64,000 nucleotides of DNA from Vulcanimicrobiota bacterium (GTDB taxonomy: Bacteria; Vulcanimicrobiota; JAJTBE01). Position 1 is the stretch's first letter. Every line of letters starts with the position of its first letter. The stretch covers positions 1 through 64,000 of the forward strand of contig JAIORV010000160.1 of assembly GCA_021107945.1 (NCBI GenBank). The letters are read 5' to 3'. Both the position numbers and the translations under genes were made by a program. The notes beneath the pieces are model-generated. The model was not told where the DNA came from. It ran no database searches and saw nothing but the letters and a program-made list of their open reading frames with translations. Shown here in pieces: positions 3,251-60,789 of this stretch.

Positions 3251-3290
3251 TTCTCCTCTGTGGTCTTTGTGGTCTTTGCGGTTAATAAAC
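3251..3290. repeat. Dispersed CTCTGYGG-type spacer repeat
   Basis: TCCTCTGTGGTCTTTGTGG followed by TCTTTGCGGTTAA: one of about 14 copies in this window of a degenerate repeat built from CTCTGCGG / CTTTGCGGTGAA units. It lies between the ankyrin and symporter genes and has no coding role. Confidence 0.7.
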
Positions 3291-18882: not shown

Positions 18883-21800
18883 ATGAAAGATAAAAGCAAA
18901 TTGGACTTCGAAATTCCACGAGACCTTCCATATTATATCCAGAAAAAACAGGCGGTATTATTCGTCGGAGCGGGGCTTTCGAAAGCGGCGGGATTACCAT
19001 TATGGGGCGAATTTATAGAGATATTGTTAAAAGATTTTGACACTAAGCCCCAGACTGCTGACTTCCTTGACATTGTTGAATACTATGAAAACGAATTCGG
19101 CCGCCCTCGTCTTATGGAAAAATTTCATGATATATTCGGAGCGAGAGGCATAAAGCTCACAGAGGCTCACAAGATAATCGCCAGGCTTCCCTGGAAAACA
19201 ATTGTTACCGGGAACTACGACAGGCTTCTGGAAAAAGCTCTTGAGGAATCGGGAGTTGATTTTAAGACAATTCTAACTAATAAGTCCATTTCTCTGGCAG
19301 CCGGAGATAAGATCAACCTTCTCAAGATGCACGGAGATGTGGATCTGCCTGAATCGATCGTTATATCCCGCACTGATTATGATGAATACAGAAACAAGAA
19401 TTCCTCCCTGATAAACCACCTGCGAAGCCTGATTACCACAAATCCGTTCTTCTTCGTTGGCTTCTCTCTCACGGATCCCAACTTCCGCCTTATCATGAAC
19501 GAGGTATATCAGGATTTGAAGGAATATCAGCGAATGAACTTCGCCCTGTGCGCCGGAATTGATAAATACCAACGGAAGCAATGGGAAAAAAGAAACATCA
19601 AGGCGGTGGATATACTCAATTGGAGTAACTTGACTCCCTTTTTCAAGAGGTTGGAAGAGAAAATTAAAATAGACCCCATTTCCATTCCACGGAGCTCTTT
19701 TGACTCTATAGCAAAAAGGTGGCGGAAAAAGGTTCACGACGGTGAAAAACAGCTTGACCCCAGAGGCATATTCCAACTTGTTCATTCTACAGGGATAATT
19801 AACCTAGAGGATATTTATGTTGAGCCTTTTCTGTCTCCGGGGGGAAAAGCAATGCCTATTTCCATCAGGAGTATCGCGGAATTCAATGCCAAAGATGCCC
19901 TGAGATTAATGTCGGAGGATGACGACACCGATATTAAAAGCATCAGCTCGGGCATATACAGAAGCCAGATTACAAGAGAAGGAAAGAAGCATATATTTCT
20001 TCACGAATCTGAAAGAAAAAAGTTCGAGGAGTTACACGGAAAAAAAATCGGCGATCTTCATGCTCTTGAAAGCCTACTCAGGTTTGAAAAGGATCTCGGT
20101 TTCATAGAGTTTGCAAAACACTGTCCCCGCGCTGTTATTATCGGCGATCCAGGATCGGGAAAAAGCGTCCTGTTACAGTACATGGCATACATATCTTCAG
20201 GAGAAAATAAAATCTTTCGCGATAAATACCTCCCCCTGAGGATTCCCCTGAAAAAATACTCCGCTCACCTTATGAAATCCCCGCAACATGTGCCGCTCAA
20301 AGATTTTATAGTTGAATATGTGCGAAAGAATATCGAGAACGAAGATTATATGGAAGCATTTCTATGGAAGAAAGTTGACGAAGGTAAGGTTCTCCTCCTT
20401 TTTGACGGCGTTGATGAGGTTTCGACCTTGAAGATGAGGGAAAAAGTATGTGCAGAAATACAAAGAGTCATTGATGACCATCACCGATGTCCCTGCTTCA
20501 TTACATCCCGCCCCGCCGGGTATCAGGGAATGGGGTATTTCAACCTGATACCTCACTTTAACCTGAAGCTTTTTAAAAATGAAGAGATAGAGAAATACCT
20601 GCAAAAATGGTTCGAGTTAAGCGGGCCCTGGTACAACGAAAACGAAAAAATTGCTCTCAATCATGCAGTGACCCTATTCAAGGATATCAAAAAAAATGAG
20701 AGCGTTCTGAAACTAGCTCGCACCCCGCTTCTTCTGTTTATCATCGCTCAGATTCACCGGCAGACTATTAAACTTCCTGAACGACGAGTGGAGTTTTATG
20801 ATGCCGCTGTCAAGACAATCGGCAGATCATGGCTTGAATTAAAGGGATTTCAGGAAGGAGTTGATTTCCCGCCCCTCTCGATTCTACTTGACGGGCTGGA
20901 CCTCGTCGCTTTCAATCTACATAAGGATTACGAGGAAAATATTGCCCCCGAGGATACCGTCAGGGATTGGATTGCCGATTCTTTTTGCACCCGGCGGGGA
21001 TATTCGCGTGAGAAGGGATTGGAGGAAGCCGAAGATTTCCTGGAGGCGGTCAGGGAGAAGGTAGGTATCCTGGTTGAGAAAGAAACGGGCAAATACGGAT
21101 TTATTCACCTGACATTCCAGGAATACTTCGCCGCCCGGCATCTATCCGTTGGAAAGGGAACATCATTTGCCACGGATTTCGTCAGGAAATGCAGGCATAA
21201 TCCCCGGTGGAAGGAGGTTATTATGCTTATGGTGGGAATGGCGAATCCAGCTCTTGCCGACAGACTACTCCGCGCCATAATGGAGCCTCCCTCCCTATAT
21301 GAGGATTTCCTTCACCGGGATCTTTTCCTGGCGTCCGAATGCCTCAAGGATCAGCCCGACGGGCTGAGTATTGAAAGGAAACAAGAGATTACTAATAAGC
21401 TTATTGAGGTAATCCAGGGAGATAATGTCGCCATAGCAAGAGGAGAAGCTTTTAATCTCCTTCCTTTTGGGGCTCCCATTGAGTCCTGGAAGAAAGAGGA
21501 CAGGAATTGGATGATGAAAAGACTGGTGAATGAAGATTCAGATGTCCGCCAATCCGCCGTTGAATATTTCACCCAAGCCGCCCCCGACGACCCTGAAATA
21601 AGAAATGAAATGAAGAAAAGACTGGGGGATGAAAATTGGCGTATCCGCAATTCCGCCGTTGAATATTTCACTCAAACCGCCCCCGACGACCCTGAAATAA
21701 GAAATGAAATGAAGAAAAGACTGGGGGATGAAAATTGGCGTATCCGCAATTCCGCCGTTGAATATTTCACTCAAACCGCCCCCGACGACCCTGAAATAAG

Positions 21801-22980
21801 AAATGAAATGAAGAAAAGACTGGGGGATGAAAATTGGCGTATCCGCAATTCCGCCGTTGAATATTTCACCCAAACCGCCTCCGGCGACCCTGAAATAAGA
21901 AATGAAATTATGAAAAGGCTGGCGGATGAATGTGAGGCTGTCCGCTATTCCGCCGTTCAATATTTCACCCAAACCGCCCCCGACGACCCTGAAATAAGAA
22001 ATGAAATTATGAAAAGACTGGGGGATGAAAATTGGTCTGTCAGCAATTCCGCCTTTGAATATTTCACCCAAACCGCCCCCGACGACCCTGAAATAAGAAA
22101 GGAAATGATGAAAAGGCTGGGGGATGAAGATTCAAGTGTCCGCTATTTCGCCGTTCAATATTTCACTCAAATCTCCCCCGAAGACACTGAAATAAGAAAA
22201 GTAATACGTAATAAAATTATGGAAAGACTGGGGGATAAAGATTTAATTGTCCGCAATTCCGCCGTTGAATATTTCACCCAAACCGCCCCCGACGACCCTG
22301 AAATAAGAAAAATAATAAGTAATAAAATTTTGGAAAGAATGGAAATTATGAAAAGAATGGGGGGTAAAGATTTAATTATCGGCGCTCCCGCCGTTCAATA
22401 TTTATTCCAAACCGGCCCCGACGACCCTGAAATAAGAAAAGTAATAAGTAATAAAATTATGGAAAGAAAGGAAATTATGAAAAGCCTGGGGGATGAAGAT
22501 TCAAATATCCGCAATTCCGCCGTTAAATATTTCACCCAAACCGCCCCCGACGACCCTGAAATAAGAAAGGAAATGATGAAAAGGCTGGGGGATGAAGATG
22601 AGGATGTCCGTTTATCCGCCGTTCAATATTTCGCCAAAACCGCCCCCGACGACCCTGAAATAAGAAATAAAATGATGAAAAGGCTGGAGGATAATAATTC
22701 AGATGTCCGCCTTTCCGCCTTTGTATATTTTACAAAAGCCATTAGCAAAGACAAAAAATTTGCAAAACAGATATTGGATTTTATTCAACGAAAGCCCGAA
22801 ATTCTTATTTTGACCCCTGCGTTAATCCCTGACGTTGCAAGGTCCATAAAAAATCACAAGTTTATATCCGATGAATACAAAAAAAGAAGACCCCATTTCC
22901 CGGCAAATGACAAAGAATCATTAGATCATATATACTACAATCTCCTTCTCGAAACCCTCAAACTTGTGGAGGCTGACTAA
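18883..22980 (+). CDS. SIR2-NACHT-HEAT NLR-like protein, probable anti-phage defence
   Basis: 1365 residues. N-terminal SIR2 domain (~15-270): NAD-binding VLFVGAGLSKAAGLPLW, TGNYDRLLE, catalytic-type KMHGDVD (His ~150), TTNPFFFVGFSLTDPNF. Central NACHT ATPase: Walker A GDPGSGKS at 421-428, Walker B LLLFDGVDE at ~505, sensor PCFITSRPAGY, and LTFQEYFAARHLS at the end of the helical region. C-terminus: 11 full HEAT-like repeats (892-1278), mostly 33 residues, plus a partial one. SIR2-STAND proteins such as Avs5 and NACHT proteins defend against phage by depleting NAD+ once the C-terminal repeats sense an invader; this protein fits that plan. It stands alone between ade and repeat-rich spacer. 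No partner gene is needed for this class. Function is inferred from architecture. Confidence 0.9.
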   Translation: MKDKSKLDFEIPRDLPYYIQKKQAVLFVGAGLSKAAGLPLWGEFIEILLKDFDTKPQTADFLDIVEYYENEFGRPRLMEKFHDIFGARGIKLTEAHKIIARLPWKTIVTGNYDRLLEKALEESGVDFKTILTNKSISLAAGDKINLLKMHGDVDLPESIVISRTDYDEYRNKNSSLINHLRSLITTNPFFFVGFSLTDPNFRLIMNEVYQDLKEYQRMNFALCAGIDKYQRKQWEKRNIKAVDILNWSNLTPFFKRLEEKIKIDPISIPRSSFDSIAKRWRKKVHDGEKQLDPRGIFQLVHSTGIINLEDIYVEPFLSPGGKAMPISIRSIAEFNAKDALRLMSEDDDTDIKSISSGIYRSQITREGKKHIFLHESERKKFEELHGKKIGDLHALESLLRFEKDLGFIEFAKHCPRAVIIGDPGSGKSVLLQYMAYISSGENKIFRDKYLPLRIPLKKYSAHLMKSPQHVPLKDFIVEYVRKNIENEDYMEAFLWKKVDEGKVLLLFDGVDEVSTLKMREKVCAEIQRVIDDHHRCPCFITSRPAGYQGMGYFNLIPHFNLKLFKNEEIEKYLQKWFELSGPWYNENEKIALNHAVTLFKDIKKNESVLKLARTPLLLFIIAQIHRQTIKLPERRVEFYDAAVKTIGRSWLELKGFQEGVDFPPLSILLDGLDLVAFNLHKDYEENIAPEDTVRDWIADSFCTRRGYSREKGLEEAEDFLEAVREKVGILVEKETGKYGFIHLTFQEYFAARHLSVGKGTSFATDFVRKCRHNPRWKEVIMLMVGMANPALADRLLRAIMEPPSLYEDFLHRDLFLASECLKDQPDGLSIERKQEITNKLIEVIQGDNVAIARGEAFNLLPFGAPIESWKKEDRNWMMKRLVNEDSDVRQSAVEYFTQAAPDDPEIRNEMKKRLGDENWRIRNSAVEYFTQTAPDDPEIRNEMKKRLGDENWRIRNSAVEYFTQTAPDDPEIRNEMKKRLGDENWRIRNSAVEYFTQTASGDPEIRNEIMKRLADECEAVRYSAVQYFTQTAPDDPEIRNEIMKRLGDENWSVSNSAFEYFTQTAPDDPEIRKEMMKRLGDEDSSVRYFAVQYFTQISPEDTEIRKVIRNKIMERLGDKDLIVRNSAVEYFTQTAPDDPEIRKIISNKILERMEIMKRMGGKDLIIGAPAVQYLFQTGPDDPEIRKVISNKIMERKEIMKSLGDEDSNIRNSAVKYFTQTAPDDPEIRKEMMKRLGDEDEDVRLSAVQYFAKTAPDDPEIRNKMMKRLEDNNSDVRLSAFVYFTKAISKDKKFAKQILDFIQRKPEILILTPALIPDVARSIKNHKFISDEYKKRRPHFPANDKESLDHIYYNLLLETLKLVEAD
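21556..22716 (+). repeat. Coding tandem repeats of the NACHT protein, 99-bp unit
   Basis: Eleven consecutive units with the core YFTQTAPDDPEIR. Units 1-6 and 10-11 are 99 bp; unit 7 is 111 bp; units 8 and 9 are 129 bp. Units 2 (21655-21753) and 3 (21754-21852) are identical over all 99 bp, and unit 1 differs by two bases, so copies arose very recently or are homogenised by recombination. All length variants are multiples of three. This is protein-coding tandem repetition, not a CRISPR array: there are no unique spacers. Confidence 0.95.
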
Positions 22981-36680: not shown

Positions 36681-38933
36681 ATGAAATGTCCCGTTTGTGG
36701 AACTGACAATAAAGATACGGCCACATTCTGTTTTTCCTGCGGTTATGCATTATTGCAGGGATCCAACGTTTTTCGCGCATCAAGAAATCCCACCGTACCC
36801 ACCGAGTCTTCTACCGTAAACCAAAGTCCTCCTGAACAAAGCTCCCAAGCTTCTTCTCCTCCACCTGCCGGAGCAAGTTCTCAAGATTCATCTCACCTAT
36901 CTCCGAAAACTATCCATAAAGGGCGTTATCAGATTAACAGAAAATTGGGGCAGGGAGGTATGGGTGAAGTCTATCTTGCAAATGACACAGTGATGCATTC
37001 AAAAGTTGTGGTCAAGGAGATGAAGTCCAAGAACGCCTCCACAAATGACAGAATATATTTTGAGAAACGATTCGAGGAGGAAGCACGACTCCTATTCCGC
37101 CTGAAACATAACAATCTCCCCAGGGTAACTGATCTCTTCAAGGAAGGAGAAAGTTATTTCCTGGTTATGGAATATATCGAGGGAGAAAACCTGGAAGATG
37201 TTGCCGGAAAACGCCCGGACGGACGAATAACAGTGGATGAATGTATTGAATGGATGGGGACGGCTTTGGAAATTCTCAAGTATCTTCATGGTCAGAAACC
37301 TCCGGTTGTACACAGGGATATTAAACCCTCAAACATTATGCTGACGGAAACCGGTGATATATTTATTGTGGATTTCGGCATCGCCCGGACTGTGGGGACA
37401 AGAACATATACCCTGGTAGGCACTCCCGGGTTCATCTCACCGGAGCACATGACAGGCAAGCTCTGCCTTTCGTCGGATATATATAGCCTGGGGGCAACAC
37501 TTCACTTCCTGTTGACTGGAGATAATCCACAAAACCGGGATCCCTTCGACTTCCCTCCCCTATCGAAATACCGCGACGATATACCTGAAGGCTTACAGGA
37601 TATATTTGATAAGATGATTGCAATGAAGAGGGATGATCGTTACCGGAGGGTGGAAGATGTTCTGACAGACCTGGCAAACATCAAATGCATCCTATCCCCT
37701 GCCTCTCCATTTTCTGTAGGAGGGACGTCCCCGTCCCGATTTTTGGAGACGTCCCCGTCCCGAGATCCCGAACAACAGCCTTCCTCCGCCATGCCTCCTT
37801 CTGAATCACCGGCAATGGCAGATCTTCTCCCCGCTCCTGTAAGACCGCAAAAAAAACGTACACCAATCATTCCTCTTGTTATACTTATTGCATGTATAAT
37901 TACAACTGCAGTATTGTTTGTATATACGAGAAATAAGACAAAATCCGGAAAAACGGTTCTCCCTTCTTCAGGAGGAATGTCCTCATCCCAATACCCCGAT
38001 AAACAAACTCATTCTATTTCTCCGGGAATACAAAATGAACCACAATTAAAAAAATGGAAATGTCTGAGGACGCTAAAAGGGCATTCTTCTGATGTTAATT
38101 CAGTTGCATTCTCCCCTGACGGAAAATATATGGCGAGCGGAAGTAATGATAAAACAATTAAAATGTGGAATAAAGATACGGGAAAATGTTTGAGGACACT
38201 GAAAGGGCATTCTTCCGATATTAATTCCGTTAAATTCTCCCCCGACAGCAAATATATCGCAAGCGGAAGTTATGATCACACAATAAAAATATGGGATGCA
38301 GATTCCGGTGAATGTTTGAGGACACTGAAGGGGCATTCCGGTTCCGTTTATTCCGTTGCGTTCTCCCCCGACGGTAAATATATCGCATCGGGCGGTTGGG
38401 ATAAAACAATAAAAATATGGGATGCAGATACGGGCGAATGTCTGAAAACCCTGATAGGCCATACTCTTTGGGTTCGTTCGATCGCATTTTCCCCCGACGG
38501 AAAGAATATCGCAACAGGCAGTTCTGACAAAACAATTAAAATATGGGCAATAGATACGGGTGAATGTCTGAAGACCCTCAAAGGTCATTCCGATTATGTT
38601 ATCTCCGTCGCGTTTTCCCCCGACGGTCAATATCTCGCATCCGGTGGCTGGGATAAGACAATAAAAATATGGAATAAAGATACGGGTGAATGTTTGAAGA
38701 CCCTGGAAGGTTATTCTATCGACATAGAATCTGTTGCCTTCTCCCCCGACGGGAAACATATTGCATCCGGAGGTCGTGATAATACAATAAGAATATGGAA
38801 TAAAGATACAGGTAAATGCTCCGGTATCCTTGAAGGACATTCCGGTTGGGTTTTTTCCGTCACATTTTCCCCGGACGGCAGATACATTGCATCGGGAAGT
38901 AAGGACAAAACAATTAAAATATGGAGACGGTAA
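36681..38933 (+). CDS. Ser/Thr protein kinase with zinc ribbon, membrane helix and WD40 propeller
   Basis: 750 residues. Zinc ribbon (CPVCGTDNKDTATFCFSCG, 3-21); Ser/Pro-rich linker; Hanks-type kinase (~77-340) with GQGGMGEVYLA, lysine in VVVKEMK, HRDIKPSNIM and VDFGIARTVG; linker; one membrane helix (~396-415, IIPLVILIACIITTAVLFV); seven WD40 repeats (~457-750), e.g. CLRTLKGHSSDVNSVAFSPD and DKTIKIW. Seven blades close a full propeller, so the extracytoplasmic part is probably a ligand- or partner-binding sensor. The intracellular juxtamembrane linker contains one complete REP repeat in frame, plus a second partial copy, and a diverged one lies just outside the helix. No phosphatase gene adjoins it; a PP2C-type phosphatase is at 60.9 kb. 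Confidence 0.95.
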   Translation: MKCPVCGTDNKDTATFCFSCGYALLQGSNVFRASRNPTVPTESSTVNQSPPEQSSQASSPPPAGASSQDSSHLSPKTIHKGRYQINRKLGQGGMGEVYLANDTVMHSKVVVKEMKSKNASTNDRIYFEKRFEEEARLLFRLKHNNLPRVTDLFKEGESYFLVMEYIEGENLEDVAGKRPDGRITVDECIEWMGTALEILKYLHGQKPPVVHRDIKPSNIMLTETGDIFIVDFGIARTVGTRTYTLVGTPGFISPEHMTGKLCLSSDIYSLGATLHFLLTGDNPQNRDPFDFPPLSKYRDDIPEGLQDIFDKMIAMKRDDRYRRVEDVLTDLANIKCILSPASPFSVGGTSPSRFLETSPSRDPEQQPSSAMPPSESPAMADLLPAPVRPQKKRTPIIPLVILIACIITTAVLFVYTRNKTKSGKTVLPSSGGMSSSQYPDKQTHSISPGIQNEPQLKKWKCLRTLKGHSSDVNSVAFSPDGKYMASGSNDKTIKMWNKDTGKCLRTLKGHSSDINSVKFSPDSKYIASGSYDHTIKIWDADSGECLRTLKGHSGSVYSVAFSPDGKYIASGGWDKTIKIWDADTGECLKTLIGHTLWVRSIAFSPDGKNIATGSSDKTIKIWAIDTGECLKTLKGHSDYVISVAFSPDGQYLASGGWDKTIKIWNKDTGECLKTLEGYSIDIESVAFSPDGKHIASGGRDNTIRIWNKDTGKCSGILEGHSGWVFSVTFSPDGRYIASGSKDKTIKIWRR
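37715..37764 (+). repeat. Class A REP inside the kinase coding sequence
   Basis: A full REP (TGTAGGAGGGACGTCC then CCGTCCCGAT, 37715-37740) followed by a partial second copy (GGAGACGTCCCCGTCCCGA, 37745-37763). Translated in frame it gives VGGTSPSRFLETSPSRD in the linker before the membrane helix. Confidence 0.9.
37969..38000 (+). repeat. Diverged REP copy inside the kinase coding sequence
   Basis: CAGGAGGAATGTCCTCATCC then CAATACCCCGAT: a decayed class A REP that lost the GTAG head but keeps the AGGAGG..TGTCC..CATCC order. It encodes GGMSSSQYPD between the membrane helix and the WD40 domain. Confidence 0.55.
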
Positions 38934-39015: not shown

Positions 39016-39041
39016 TGTAGGAGGGACGTCCCCGTCCCGAT
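39016..39041 (+). repeat. REP element, class A
   Basis: Full copy, plus orientation, 70 bp left of the REP that bounds the RAYT unit. Preceded by AATTT as is the copy at 39087. Confidence 0.9.
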
Positions 39042-39086
39042 AAAAACAGATGACGGATCGCGTATCCCATTTCCCGCCTCCAATTT

Positions 39087-39112
39087 TGTAGGAGGGACGT
39101 CCCCGTCCCGAT
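39087..39112 (+). repeat. REP element, left end of RAYT unit 1
   Basis: CCAATTTTGTAGGAGGGACG then TCCCCGTCCCGAT; the CCAATTTTG lead-in matches, inverted, the CAAAATTGG after the right-end REP of unit 2 at 59112. Confidence 0.9.
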
Positions 39113-39151
39113 ATGTGTCCTTAATCCATATCTCTATCCTTCAACCAACAA

Positions 39152-39655: not shown

Positions 39656-39731
39656 GGTGTCACCTTATTTATTGTATTCTATTATCTGAATTAGGATAAA
39701 ATGGCATATGGAATAATCGGATGGGGATAAT

Positions 39732-39757
39732 ATCGGGACGGGGACGTCCCTCCTACA
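39732..39757 (-). repeat. REP element, right end of RAYT unit 1
   Basis: Full class A REP in minus orientation (ATCGGGACGGGGACGTCC then CTCCTACA), inverted relative to 39087-39112. Confidence 0.9.
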
Positions 39758-39794
39758 GATCCGGCATCCGACCTCTGACATCTGACATCCGTTT

Positions 39795-39820
39795 ATCGGG
39801 ACGGGGACGTCCCTCCTACA
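39795..39820 (-). repeat. REP element, class A
   Basis: A second minus-oriented copy 38 bp beyond the RAYT unit; the DNA between the two is made of ATCCG/CTGACAT microrepeats. Confidence 0.9.
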
Positions 39821-58324: not shown

Positions 58325-58350
58325 TGTAGGAGGGACGTCCCCGTCCCGAT
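58325..58350 (+). repeat. REP element, class A
   Basis: Full copy, plus orientation, 24 bp after the DtxR-type gene and 105 bp left of the second RAYT unit. Confidence 0.9.
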
Positions 58351-58454
58351 AAAAGGATGACAATCATCGGTTGTCAGTTGTATTGGTTTTTTGTTTTCAC
58401 CACAAAAACCACTTGAAAATGCGAAACTCATGACCTTAATTCAGTGACATTATT

Positions 58455-58480
58455 TGTAGGAGGGACGTCCTCGTCCCGAT
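58455..58480 (+). repeat. REP element, left end of RAYT unit 2
   Basis: TGTAGGAGGGACGTCC then TCGTCCCGAT; one base differs from the class A consensus. Confidence 0.9.
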
Positions 58481-58556
58481 ATTATCCCCGTCCAATTATC
58501 CATTATGCCTTTATATTCTCATTCAGATAATAAAATACAATGAATAAGGTAATAAT

Positions 58557-59060
58557 ATGAAAGATGGACAAATAAAAAACCGGGGGAAATACACATTTCC
58601 GAAACGGGGAAAATTTAACCTTCGAAAAGGAAGATATTCGTTACCGTACACATGCTATCATATAACCACTACAACATATAACCGACAAAAAATATTGGCA
58701 AATTAAGAGATATGCAAAATTCTCTTCGATTCCCTTTCTTTTCTTGAGGAGAAGGACAGGATAAAGGCGATTTGCGGTATTGTCATGCCTGACCATATTC
58801 ACATGGTTTTACAGTTGATGGAGGGGGGGAATCTTTCGAAGGTTGTGAAGGATTTTAAGAGCTTCACATCTCATAAGATCAATAGACTACTGAACCGTAA
58901 GGGTTCCATCTGGCAGGAACAATATTACGATCACAATATAAGAAGTTATGAAAACCTGGAAAAAATCGCACAATATTGCCACGAGAACCCAGTGAGAAAA
59001 GGATTGGTAGAAAAACCCGAAGATTGGGAATTCTGGTTTTTTAAGGAAGAGAATTTGTGA
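58557..59060 (+). pseudogene. RAYT transposase with in-frame nonsense codon
   Basis: It starts ATG at 58557 (KYTFPKRGKFNLRKGRYSLP) and runs in one frame to 59060, but codon 50 is TAA at 58704-58706 where the intact copy at 39152-39655 has GAA (ILAN-E-KVCKIL). After the stop the frame continues with GIVMPDHIHMVLQLMEGGN, WQEQYYDHNIR and NLEKIAQYCHENPVRKGLV, including HUH and Tyr motifs. An ATG at 58785 could start a 91-residue piece beginning at MPDHIH, which would lack the N-terminal strands. The nucleotide sequence is otherwise close to the intact copy, so the inactivation is recent. Confidence 0.9.
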
Positions 59061-59085
59061 TTGTTGATTCAGAATTATCCGTTTT

Positions 59086-59111
59086 ATCGGGACGGGGACG
59101 TCCCTCCTACA
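59086..59111 (-). repeat. REP element, right end of RAYT unit 2
   Basis: Full class A REP in minus orientation. It is followed by AAATTGGAGG, which is also found inverted beside the REP at 39087. Confidence 0.9.
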
Positions 59112-59186
59112 AAATTGGAGGTGAGAAACTGGAGGTGGGAAATGAGATCCGTCATTCGCAATCTATCCTCAGTCATCTATAATCCA

Positions 59187-59348
59187 TCATCTATCATCAG
59201 GATTTCCCCATATTTTTATTGTGTCATCAGCACTTCTTGACGCAATATATTTACCGTCGGGTGAAAATACTACGGATGGAACAGAAGAAGAATGCCCTTT
59301 CATTGTCCTTAAACATTTTCTTGTAGCGTAAACCTTTTTTTTATTCAT
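59187..59348 (-). pseudogene. Orphan WD40 blade, remnant
   Basis: A 53-codon frame reading CLRTMKGHSSSVPSVVFSPD then GKYIASRSADDTIKIWGN, a single complete WD40 repeat matching those of the kinase at 36681-38933, especially blades 1 and 3. It begins at an ATG at 59348 that overlaps the TPR gene's stop codon by 8 bp and ends at TGA 59187-59189. One blade cannot form a propeller, so it is most likely the last fragment of a deleted WD40 gene downstream of the TPR gene, or a piece copied from the kinase gene. Confidence 0.75.
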
Positions 59349-60789
59349 TTTCCTGAAGATTATTCCTTATATCCCCGGGTATAAATGCCTTCAGTCTTTT
59401 GACTTTTTCTTCCGCCTCCGAGTGCTCAGGATTCAACTGGAGGCACTTTTTATATTCCCAATAAGCTTCCTCTTTTTTACCCGTATTCAGATAATACTCA
59501 CCCAGATTGAAATGTATTTCCGGATCATCGGGTTCAATCTCCACCACCCTGTCAAAATATTCCTTCGCTTTGTTAAAATATCCCGTTTCAAAAAGCAATA
59601 CCCCCATCACGCCTAAAAATTCTGCATTATCAGGTTCAAGCTCAATTGCCTTCTCAAATTCATCGCAGGCCTCGTCAAGAAGACCCCTGAGTTTGTAAAC
59701 CACGCCCAGGGAGAGGTGTGGATCTCCATATTCGGGATCCATTTTTATTGCTTTTCTATACTCAATCTCTGCCTTTCCCGTGAGCGAAAGTCCGAGGTAG
59801 GCCTCGCCCAGGGTGAAATGATACTCTGCTTTATCGGGATCAATATTAATCGCCTTCTGATATTGATTAACAGCTTCATTAAACATTCCCTTTCCGGTAT
59901 AAATCGCTCCCATGGTATAGTGAGCTCCCGGATTCTTTGGGTCAAGCTGTACTGCTTTTTTAGCATTCTCAAGAGCTAGATCAAGTTTTCCTTCTTTGAG
60001 AAAAACCAAAGAAAGGAAATATCTTGCATCGGGATTCCGCGGGTCAAGCTCGCAGGCTTTTAATAAATTCTCCCTTGCAGATTCCATTTCGTCTTGCATT
60101 CCATTTAAATTACCCATTGCGATATATGCAAGCGGATTTTCCGGGTCACATTCAAGCGACTTTTCGCAGTATTTTCTTGCTTCATCTATTTTATCTTCTT
60201 CAGACAGAATCATACCCAGAACCGCCAATGCGTCCGAATTATCGGGTTCCAATTCCAACGCCCTTTCGCCCTCTTTTTTTGCCATTTCCACCTCATCTTT
60301 TTCCTTGTGTATCAATGATAACATCCAGTGAGGGTCGGCTTTTTCCGGAGAAATATCCAGGGCTTTTTGCAGGTGCTCAATGGAACTGTCAAACCTGTTT
60401 TCATTTAAATAAAGTACCCCCATAATGAAATGGAGCGTGTAAATATCACTTCTCATTTTTATCGCTTTTTTTAGATCCGCTATTGCCTTTTTATTCTGGT
60501 GCAGCTCCTTTGCCGCAAGAGCGGAGAGGAGAAGCAACTCAGGCTTGTTCTCCGCCTTTCCCTGTTTCCTCATGTTTTTTGAAAATTGGAGTAACTGATC
60601 CAGGTTGAAATGTACATCCACAAGAAGATTCGTCCAGATAAGTGAGAAAGGATCTTTATCCAATCTCTTCTTCACTGTCTCCCGCGCCCCGTCGAAGTTT
60701 CCTGTTTCTATAAATTTCACCACATTTATATAATCAGGATCTTTCTTATAATCAACTGTGGGAATGTTTCTTGTTTTGTCTTGCGCCAT
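59341..60789 (-). CDS. TPR-repeat protein
   Basis: 482 residues, cytoplasmic, with about twelve tetratricopeptide repeats from ~100 to ~470. Typical units: YLNENRFDSSIEHLQKALDI, AHYTMGAIYTGKGMFNEAVNQ-YQKAINIDPDKAEYHFTLGEAYLGL, and a final EEAYWEYKKCLQLNPEHSEAEE. Residues 1-95 are less regular (TVKKRLDKDPFSLIWTNLLVD). No signal peptide. TPR arrays serve as protein-binding scaffolds; it lies downstream of, and in the same direction as, the PP2C phosphatase set, so it may be part of that signalling unit. Start ATG has AAGGAG upstream. Confidence 0.9.
   Translation of the reverse strand: MAQDKTRNIPTVDYKKDPDYINVVKFIETGNFDGARETVKKRLDKDPFSLIWTNLLVDVHFNLDQLLQFSKNMRKQGKAENKPELLLLSALAAKELHQNKKAIADLKKAIKMRSDIYTLHFIMGVLYLNENRFDSSIEHLQKALDISPEKADPHWMLSLIHKEKDEVEMAKKEGERALELEPDNSDALAVLGMILSEEDKIDEARKYCEKSLECDPENPLAYIAMGNLNGMQDEMESARENLLKACELDPRNPDARYFLSLVFLKEGKLDLALENAKKAVQLDPKNPGAHYTMGAIYTGKGMFNEAVNQYQKAINIDPDKAEYHFTLGEAYLGLSLTGKAEIEYRKAIKMDPEYGDPHLSLGVVYKLRGLLDEACDEFEKAIELEPDNAEFLGVMGVLLFETGYFNKAKEYFDRVVEIEPDDPEIHFNLGEYYLNTGKKEEAYWEYKKCLQLNPEHSEAEEKVKRLKAFIPGDIRNNLQENE

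Follow-up and report, generated by a model that had tools for sequence, protein, structure and literature searches.

In-frame GTAG-type REP copies in a Ser/Thr kinase gene next to a RAYT transposase gene in a Vulcanimicrobiota bacterium

Results

The kinase gene and its REP copies

The gene under study lies in a 64,000-nucleotide stretch of DNA from a Vulcanimicrobiota bacterium, referred to here as the window; features of the window and of other loci in the genome are listed in Table 1. The encoded protein consists, in order, of a zinc-ribbon-like N-terminal pair of CxxC motifs, a Ser/Thr kinase domain (Pfam match at residues 83-285, with intact HRDIKPSN and DFG motifs), a linker, a membrane helix at approximately residues 396-414, and seven WD40 repeats. 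The stop codon of the gene and the first REP flanking a RAYT transposase gene are 84 bp apart. Dozens of Hanks-type kinase loci are found in this genome, with fusions to WD40, ankyrin, TPR or PQQ-type propellers.

An earlier note on this DNA had described a complete 26-bp REP followed by a partial copy in the kinase linker, and a decayed copy on the far side of the membrane helix. All three were found where it had placed them, and its translations of the REP segments are correct as written. Copy 1 is translated as VGGTSPSRF; the consensus GATAA(A) has become GATTT(T), with the loss of the REP's own TAA stop. Copy 2 has seven mismatches across the full 26 positions, including GAGA in place of GATA, yet shares with copy 1 the exact 16-mer GACGTCCCCGTCCCGA, which recurs 24 bp downstream. 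Copies 1 and 2 contribute 17 REP-encoded residues (346-362 of the protein), and the encoded GGTSPSRFLETSPSRD holds six Ser/Thr. Copy 3, at residues 430-438, shows seven mismatches to the main consensus and only four to a subfamily with a TG/CA stem and a TCCT loop that is common in the same genome, and can therefore be regarded as a genuine decayed REP; folding indicates that its proper hairpin is lost. A REP was considered intragenic when located wholly within an ORF with a product of more than 120 aa and read in frame, and all three copies lie in this manner within one ORF of 750 aa. According to the coding-score analysis, the REP copies in this gene are flanked on either side by sequence that resembles coding DNA.

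Table 1. Positions of the kinase gene, the RAYT units and the REPs read within genes. Entries without a prefix are positions in the window; C followed by a number denotes a contig.
Feature	Position	Strand	Remarks
Kinase host gene, 750 aa	36681..38933	+	Single ORF; domain matches and motifs
REP copy 1	37716..37741	+	CG/CG stem; 1 mismatch in 26 to GTAGGAGGGACGTCCCCGTCCCGATA
REP copy 2	37740..37765	+	Partial; 24-bp tandem of copy 1
REP copy 3	37968..37993	+	Decayed; in frame past membrane helix; subfamily match
Perfect REP, outer, flanking RAYT gene	39017..39042	+	
Perfect REP, inner, flanking RAYT gene	39088..39113	+	
RAYT / TnpA-REP transposase, 167 aa	39152..39655	-	Y1_Tnp (PF01797); HIH motif
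Perfect REP, inverted, flanking RAYT gene	39731..39756	-	
Perfect REP, inverted, flanking RAYT gene	39794..39819	-	
Second, decayed REP-RAYT-REP unit	58326..59110		REPs at 58326+, 58456+ and 59085-; RAYT frame with one stop
In-frame REP	C3:20889		Protein with weak CHAP match
In-frame REP	C7:28569		PQQ-like propeller protein
In-frame REP	C7:60464		U32 peptidase
Three tandem antisense REPs	C7:86487-86572		C-terminal part of ORF scores poorly
In-frame REPs	C9:18940 and 19039		Radical SAM protein
In-frame REP	C10:62874		B12-binding radical SAM protein
In-frame REP	C10:64670		GNAT
In-frame REP	C57:6758		
In-frame REP	C84:6642		Interdomain linker between two M16 peptidase modules
In-frame REPs	C112:4318 and 4345		
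In-frame REP cassette	C129		790-aa protein; from separate search

The REP family

The consensus of the family, TGTAGGAGGGACGTCCCCGTCCCGATAAA, comprises a GTAG head, a 6-bp stem, a 4-base loop and a GAT tail, and folds into the hairpin GGGACG-TCCC-CGTCCC. A total of 326 copies were found in the 5.56-Mb genome by using a 23-mer with up to 3 mismatches; approximately 20 copies and some variants lack placement, and all counts by location refer to the copies listed. The GTAG motif, which lies unpaired at an end of the palindrome, is strongly conserved, with every base kept in at least 94% of aligned copies. Stem positions change in pairs: among the aligned copies, position 10-17 is C-G in 229, T-A in 89 and mixed in 7, position 9-18 is A-T in 312 and G-C in 10, and position 11-16 is G-C in 299 and T-A in 19. 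Such paired changes are expected if the transposase recognises the hairpin. The main subfamilies differ by the 10-17 stem pair and by the loop (TCCC or TCCT). On the basis of its GTAG motif, complementary stem changes, high copy number and mainly intergenic location, the element is a member of the GTAG REP superfamily.

Among the copies listed, intergenic REPs are found between unidirectional (99), convergent (48) and divergent (11) gene pairs, being rarer in the last. Intergenic REPs are also 77-78% co-oriented with the adjacent gene, on the 3' and 5' sides alike (copies listed). A tract of the GGAAATGGGAAATGAGA type is located close to many REPs.

The family was absent from the other genomes of the same phylum, with no copy in sets of 57 and 148 genomes, and had no match in viral contigs. 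In a literature search, GGGACGTCCC was not found described as a REP. As a control, the reversed pattern was searched on both strands of 980 kb and gave zero matches at up to 5 mismatches, compared with 325 matches of the real pattern.

The RAYT gene and its REP-flanked units

The transposase gene downstream of the kinase gene is bounded by two REPs on each side, which point inward in inverted orientation. Its product matches PF01797 (E=3e-14) and the solved E. coli TnpA-REP structure 4er8 (E=1e-7), the latter alignment taking in the HIH motif and the QYCHENSVRKGLV region; the HUH motif, the catalytic Tyr and the kinship to E. coli TnpA-REP place it in the Y1 (HUH) class. The genome encodes twelve Y1 transposases, among which no other intact one has a member of this REP family on both sides. 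On contig C21 there is a likely third RAYT unit, the only REP near it being decayed. The kinase gene probably adjoins the source of the REP family. Judging from the association between gene and REPs, the RAYT of the window would have carried out the REP insertions.

A decayed duplicate of the REP-RAYT-REP unit is present at 58326-59351 of the window, with 88% identity along 618 bp, in the opposite orientation to the first unit and with one in-frame stop. It adjoins a WD40 fragment with 73-77% DNA similarity to the repeats of the kinase. This arrangement suggests that the 3' end of the kinase gene and the transposase unit were duplicated together.

REPs in frame within other genes

Approximately 980 kb around the listed REPs was examined. 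Coding potential was evaluated with a 3-periodic Markov model (median of coding windows 0.25; 95th percentile of wrong frames -0.03), which worked where a simple codon-usage score was too weak. A locus was counted if its ORF was coding-like on both sides of the REP, or if recognised domains were present on either side. Among the copies listed, REPs are read in frame inside at least about 11 genes besides the kinase gene, and around a dozen loci of some 330 REPs are intragenic overall. Members of the family are found in many proteins unrelated to one another; the kinase has thus not been singled out as a target.

The radical SAM protein on C9 contains a 46-aa REP-spacer-REP insert that is missing from all six same-phylum homologues, and is the cleanest case among these loci. 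The 790-aa C129 protein is unrelated to it and contains an 81%-identical cassette over 124 bp. The cassette (C9:18940-19065 and C129) is organized as REP, purine tract, pyrimidine tract and REP, with a length of about 130 bp, and looser relatives (approximately 71-78%) are found at other REP sites. For the U32 peptidase, the alignment did not resolve the insert boundaries, and none of the PDB matches for the M16, B12-radical-SAM and GNAT proteins extended across the inserts. On C7, the three antisense REPs are arranged head to tail with a 30-bp period and are read as YRDGDVPPTD repeats in an ORF of 231 aa with an N-terminal hydrophobic segment.

Reading frames and stop codons

The three sense frames of the REP consensus have different coding properties. 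One is open throughout and reads CRRDVPVPI, the second reads VGGTSPSR and then TAA, and the third begins with TAG. Among the copies listed, internal sense insertions are almost all in the open CRRDVPVPI frame. The VGGTSPSR frame is used in the kinase, where it is open only through the change of TAA to TTT. At least five other genes of the genome end exactly in ..VGGTS[PS]SR* on the TAA of a REP, and some end at the TAG.

Sense orientation within genes was considered as a sign of selection on the peptide, and this argument is weakened by the strong co-orientation already seen in intergenic REPs. After correction for co-orientation and frame openness, a sense share of approximately 44% would be expected; 11 of 12 were observed, and the corresponding p of about 0.001 is only suggestive.

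It is possible, though less likely than not, that the RAYT-driven REP family repeatedly supplies genes of this lineage with new protein segments read in frame. Under this reading, almost all insertions of REPs and of the REP-spacer-REP cassettes into genes would fall on one strand and use the single open frame, and the stops of the other sense frames would end proteins or, where one has been lost as in the kinase gene, lengthen them.

Homologues of the kinase and composition of the linker

According to the earlier note, homologues with this linker in genomes that lack the REP family would speak against capture. No such homologue was seen: the REP peptide was found in none of 37 homologues and paralogues, drawn from the genome itself and from other genomes with no close relative among them. 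Hits of a contig scan were limited to distant kinases of Ktedonobacteria and to short matches at the N-terminus. Kinase linkers do not align between paralogues, and the empty-site comparison comes from the radical-SAM gene. A REP-free WD40-kinase paralogue of 767 aa, at C3:69258-71558, has the same order of CxxC pair, kinase, linker, helix and WD40 repeats. Ser, Pro and Thr together account for 44% of the linker when the REP residues are counted and for 43% when they are left out; in the linker of the REP-free paralogue the figure is 51%.

Discussion

Origin of the kinase segments

The best explanation, to which we assign a probability of about 0.85, is that the kinase segments are GTAG-type REPs mobilised by the adjacent RAYT and inserted in a disordered linker, most likely as neutral spacer. 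The RAYT encoded just downstream would mobilise REPs of this type, one of which would have entered the Ser/Pro-rich stretch that joins the kinase domain to the membrane helix and that was disordered beforehand. Loss of its TAA codon would have allowed the ORF to continue, and the 24-bp partial tandem copy would have arisen in frame afterwards. An older copy of another subfamily may have entered beyond the helix and then decayed. The REP residues would have been kept because linkers tolerate in-frame additions. The good preservation of copy 1 might speak against neutrality, but a recent insertion would explain it as well.

The genes that end on a REP-donated TAA raise the question whether the kinase REP once did the same, ending a shorter kinase gene in ..VGGTSPSR* until stop loss fused it to a downstream helix-WD40 segment. 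The kinase REP is in exactly that frame and carries the corresponding TAA to TTT change. However, the REP-free paralogue already has the complete order of domains, so the kinase-WD40 fusion probably predates the REP, and we consider this history unlikely.

Retention of the hairpins for an RNA-level role, such as a translation pause between the kinase domain and the membrane helix, is very improbable. A stable 6-bp hairpin, stem pairs preserved family-wide by two-sided changes, the location of the kinase copies at domain boundaries, and the 77% co-orientation of intergenic REPs with the neighbouring gene would all agree with it. Recognition by the transposase, however, explains the family-wide stem conservation, copy 3 is without a proper hairpin, and insertions are found in many unrelated genes.

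The earlier note had suggested that REPs were captured as Ser/Pro-rich linker sequence on both sides of the helix, with added potential phosphorylation sites. Real REPs are indeed in frame on both sides, but they are not the source of the richness; the linker is equally rich in Ser, Pro and Thr without them, and richer in the REP-free paralogue. An adaptive gain of phosphorylatable segments, for which the six Ser/Thr encoded by the first two copies would speak, is hardly credible: copy 3 follows the membrane helix and, if the topology is usual, would be out of the kinase domain's reach, and the family enters unrelated proteins in another frame (CRRDVPVPI). Chance resemblance has a negligible probability and is refuted for copies 1 and 2, for although Ser/Pro-rich linkers are common in the family of this kinase, the identity is 25 of 26 to a family of more than 300 copies, the control with the reversed pattern yields nothing at up to 5 mismatches in 980 kb, and no homologue has the motif.

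Comparison with known systems

Di Nocera et al. 2013 (PMC3733652) describe tagged REPs in more than 80 species, single or grouped GTAG REPs wholly inside ORFs in several of them, and REP termini used as stop codons; they regard insertions as likely to fall in flexible linkers or loops, where they would plausibly be neutral. The present family shares the GTAG head, short hairpin, RAYT association, intragenic copies and REP-donated stops. It differs in being confined to one species, with none in the other phylum genomes examined, in the REP-spacer-REP cassette found in two genes that are unrelated, and in the loss of the internal stop from the kinase copy. The family is new by this description, but may be identical with one of the 24 consensus sequences of that study.

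Nunvar et al. 2010 (PMC2817692) described RAYT genes flanked by inverted REPs in Pseudomonas and Xanthomonas, including GTAGGAG... types in Xanthomonas such as GTAGGAGCGCGCTCGCGCGCGA. The layout is near-identical to that found here, with a RAYT gene between inverted REPs, whereas the stem and loop sequences are different and the phylum is distant.

Rickettsia palindromic elements (RPEs), the best-known case of mobile palindromes read as protein, are inserted in frame in unrelated protein-coding genes and add an extra peptide (reviewed in PMC10969869). The present REPs are likewise mobile palindromes read in frame in unrelated proteins. RPEs are of approximately 150 bp with a conserved peptide, nearly half of them in ORFs in the first report; the present unit measures about 26 bp, is associated with a RAYT, and is intragenic at only about 12 loci of some 330. 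An RPE-type long palindrome was also rejected from the size of this unit, and the 46-aa insert is REP-spacer-REP and not one palindrome.

The kinase REP is a clear new example, in a new family and host, of an already described phenomenon. A single genome unites an intact RAYT, more than 300 copies of the family, a dozen or so captures in frame and, at the radical-SAM gene, a clean comparison with an empty site. Such a system is suited to questions on the survival rate of insertions, the preference for one strand and eventual function.

Other repeats of the window

CCTCTGCGNNCTCTGCGGTGAA, together with its complement, forms a second repeat of intergenic regions, which is unrelated to the REP and occurs at positions 3255, 6743, 14997, 31569, 33568, 40881 and 60871 of the window. 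A 99-bp direct repeat array at 21403-22764, with 67-93% identity between units of 33 codons, probably encodes a repeat protein such as ankyrin.
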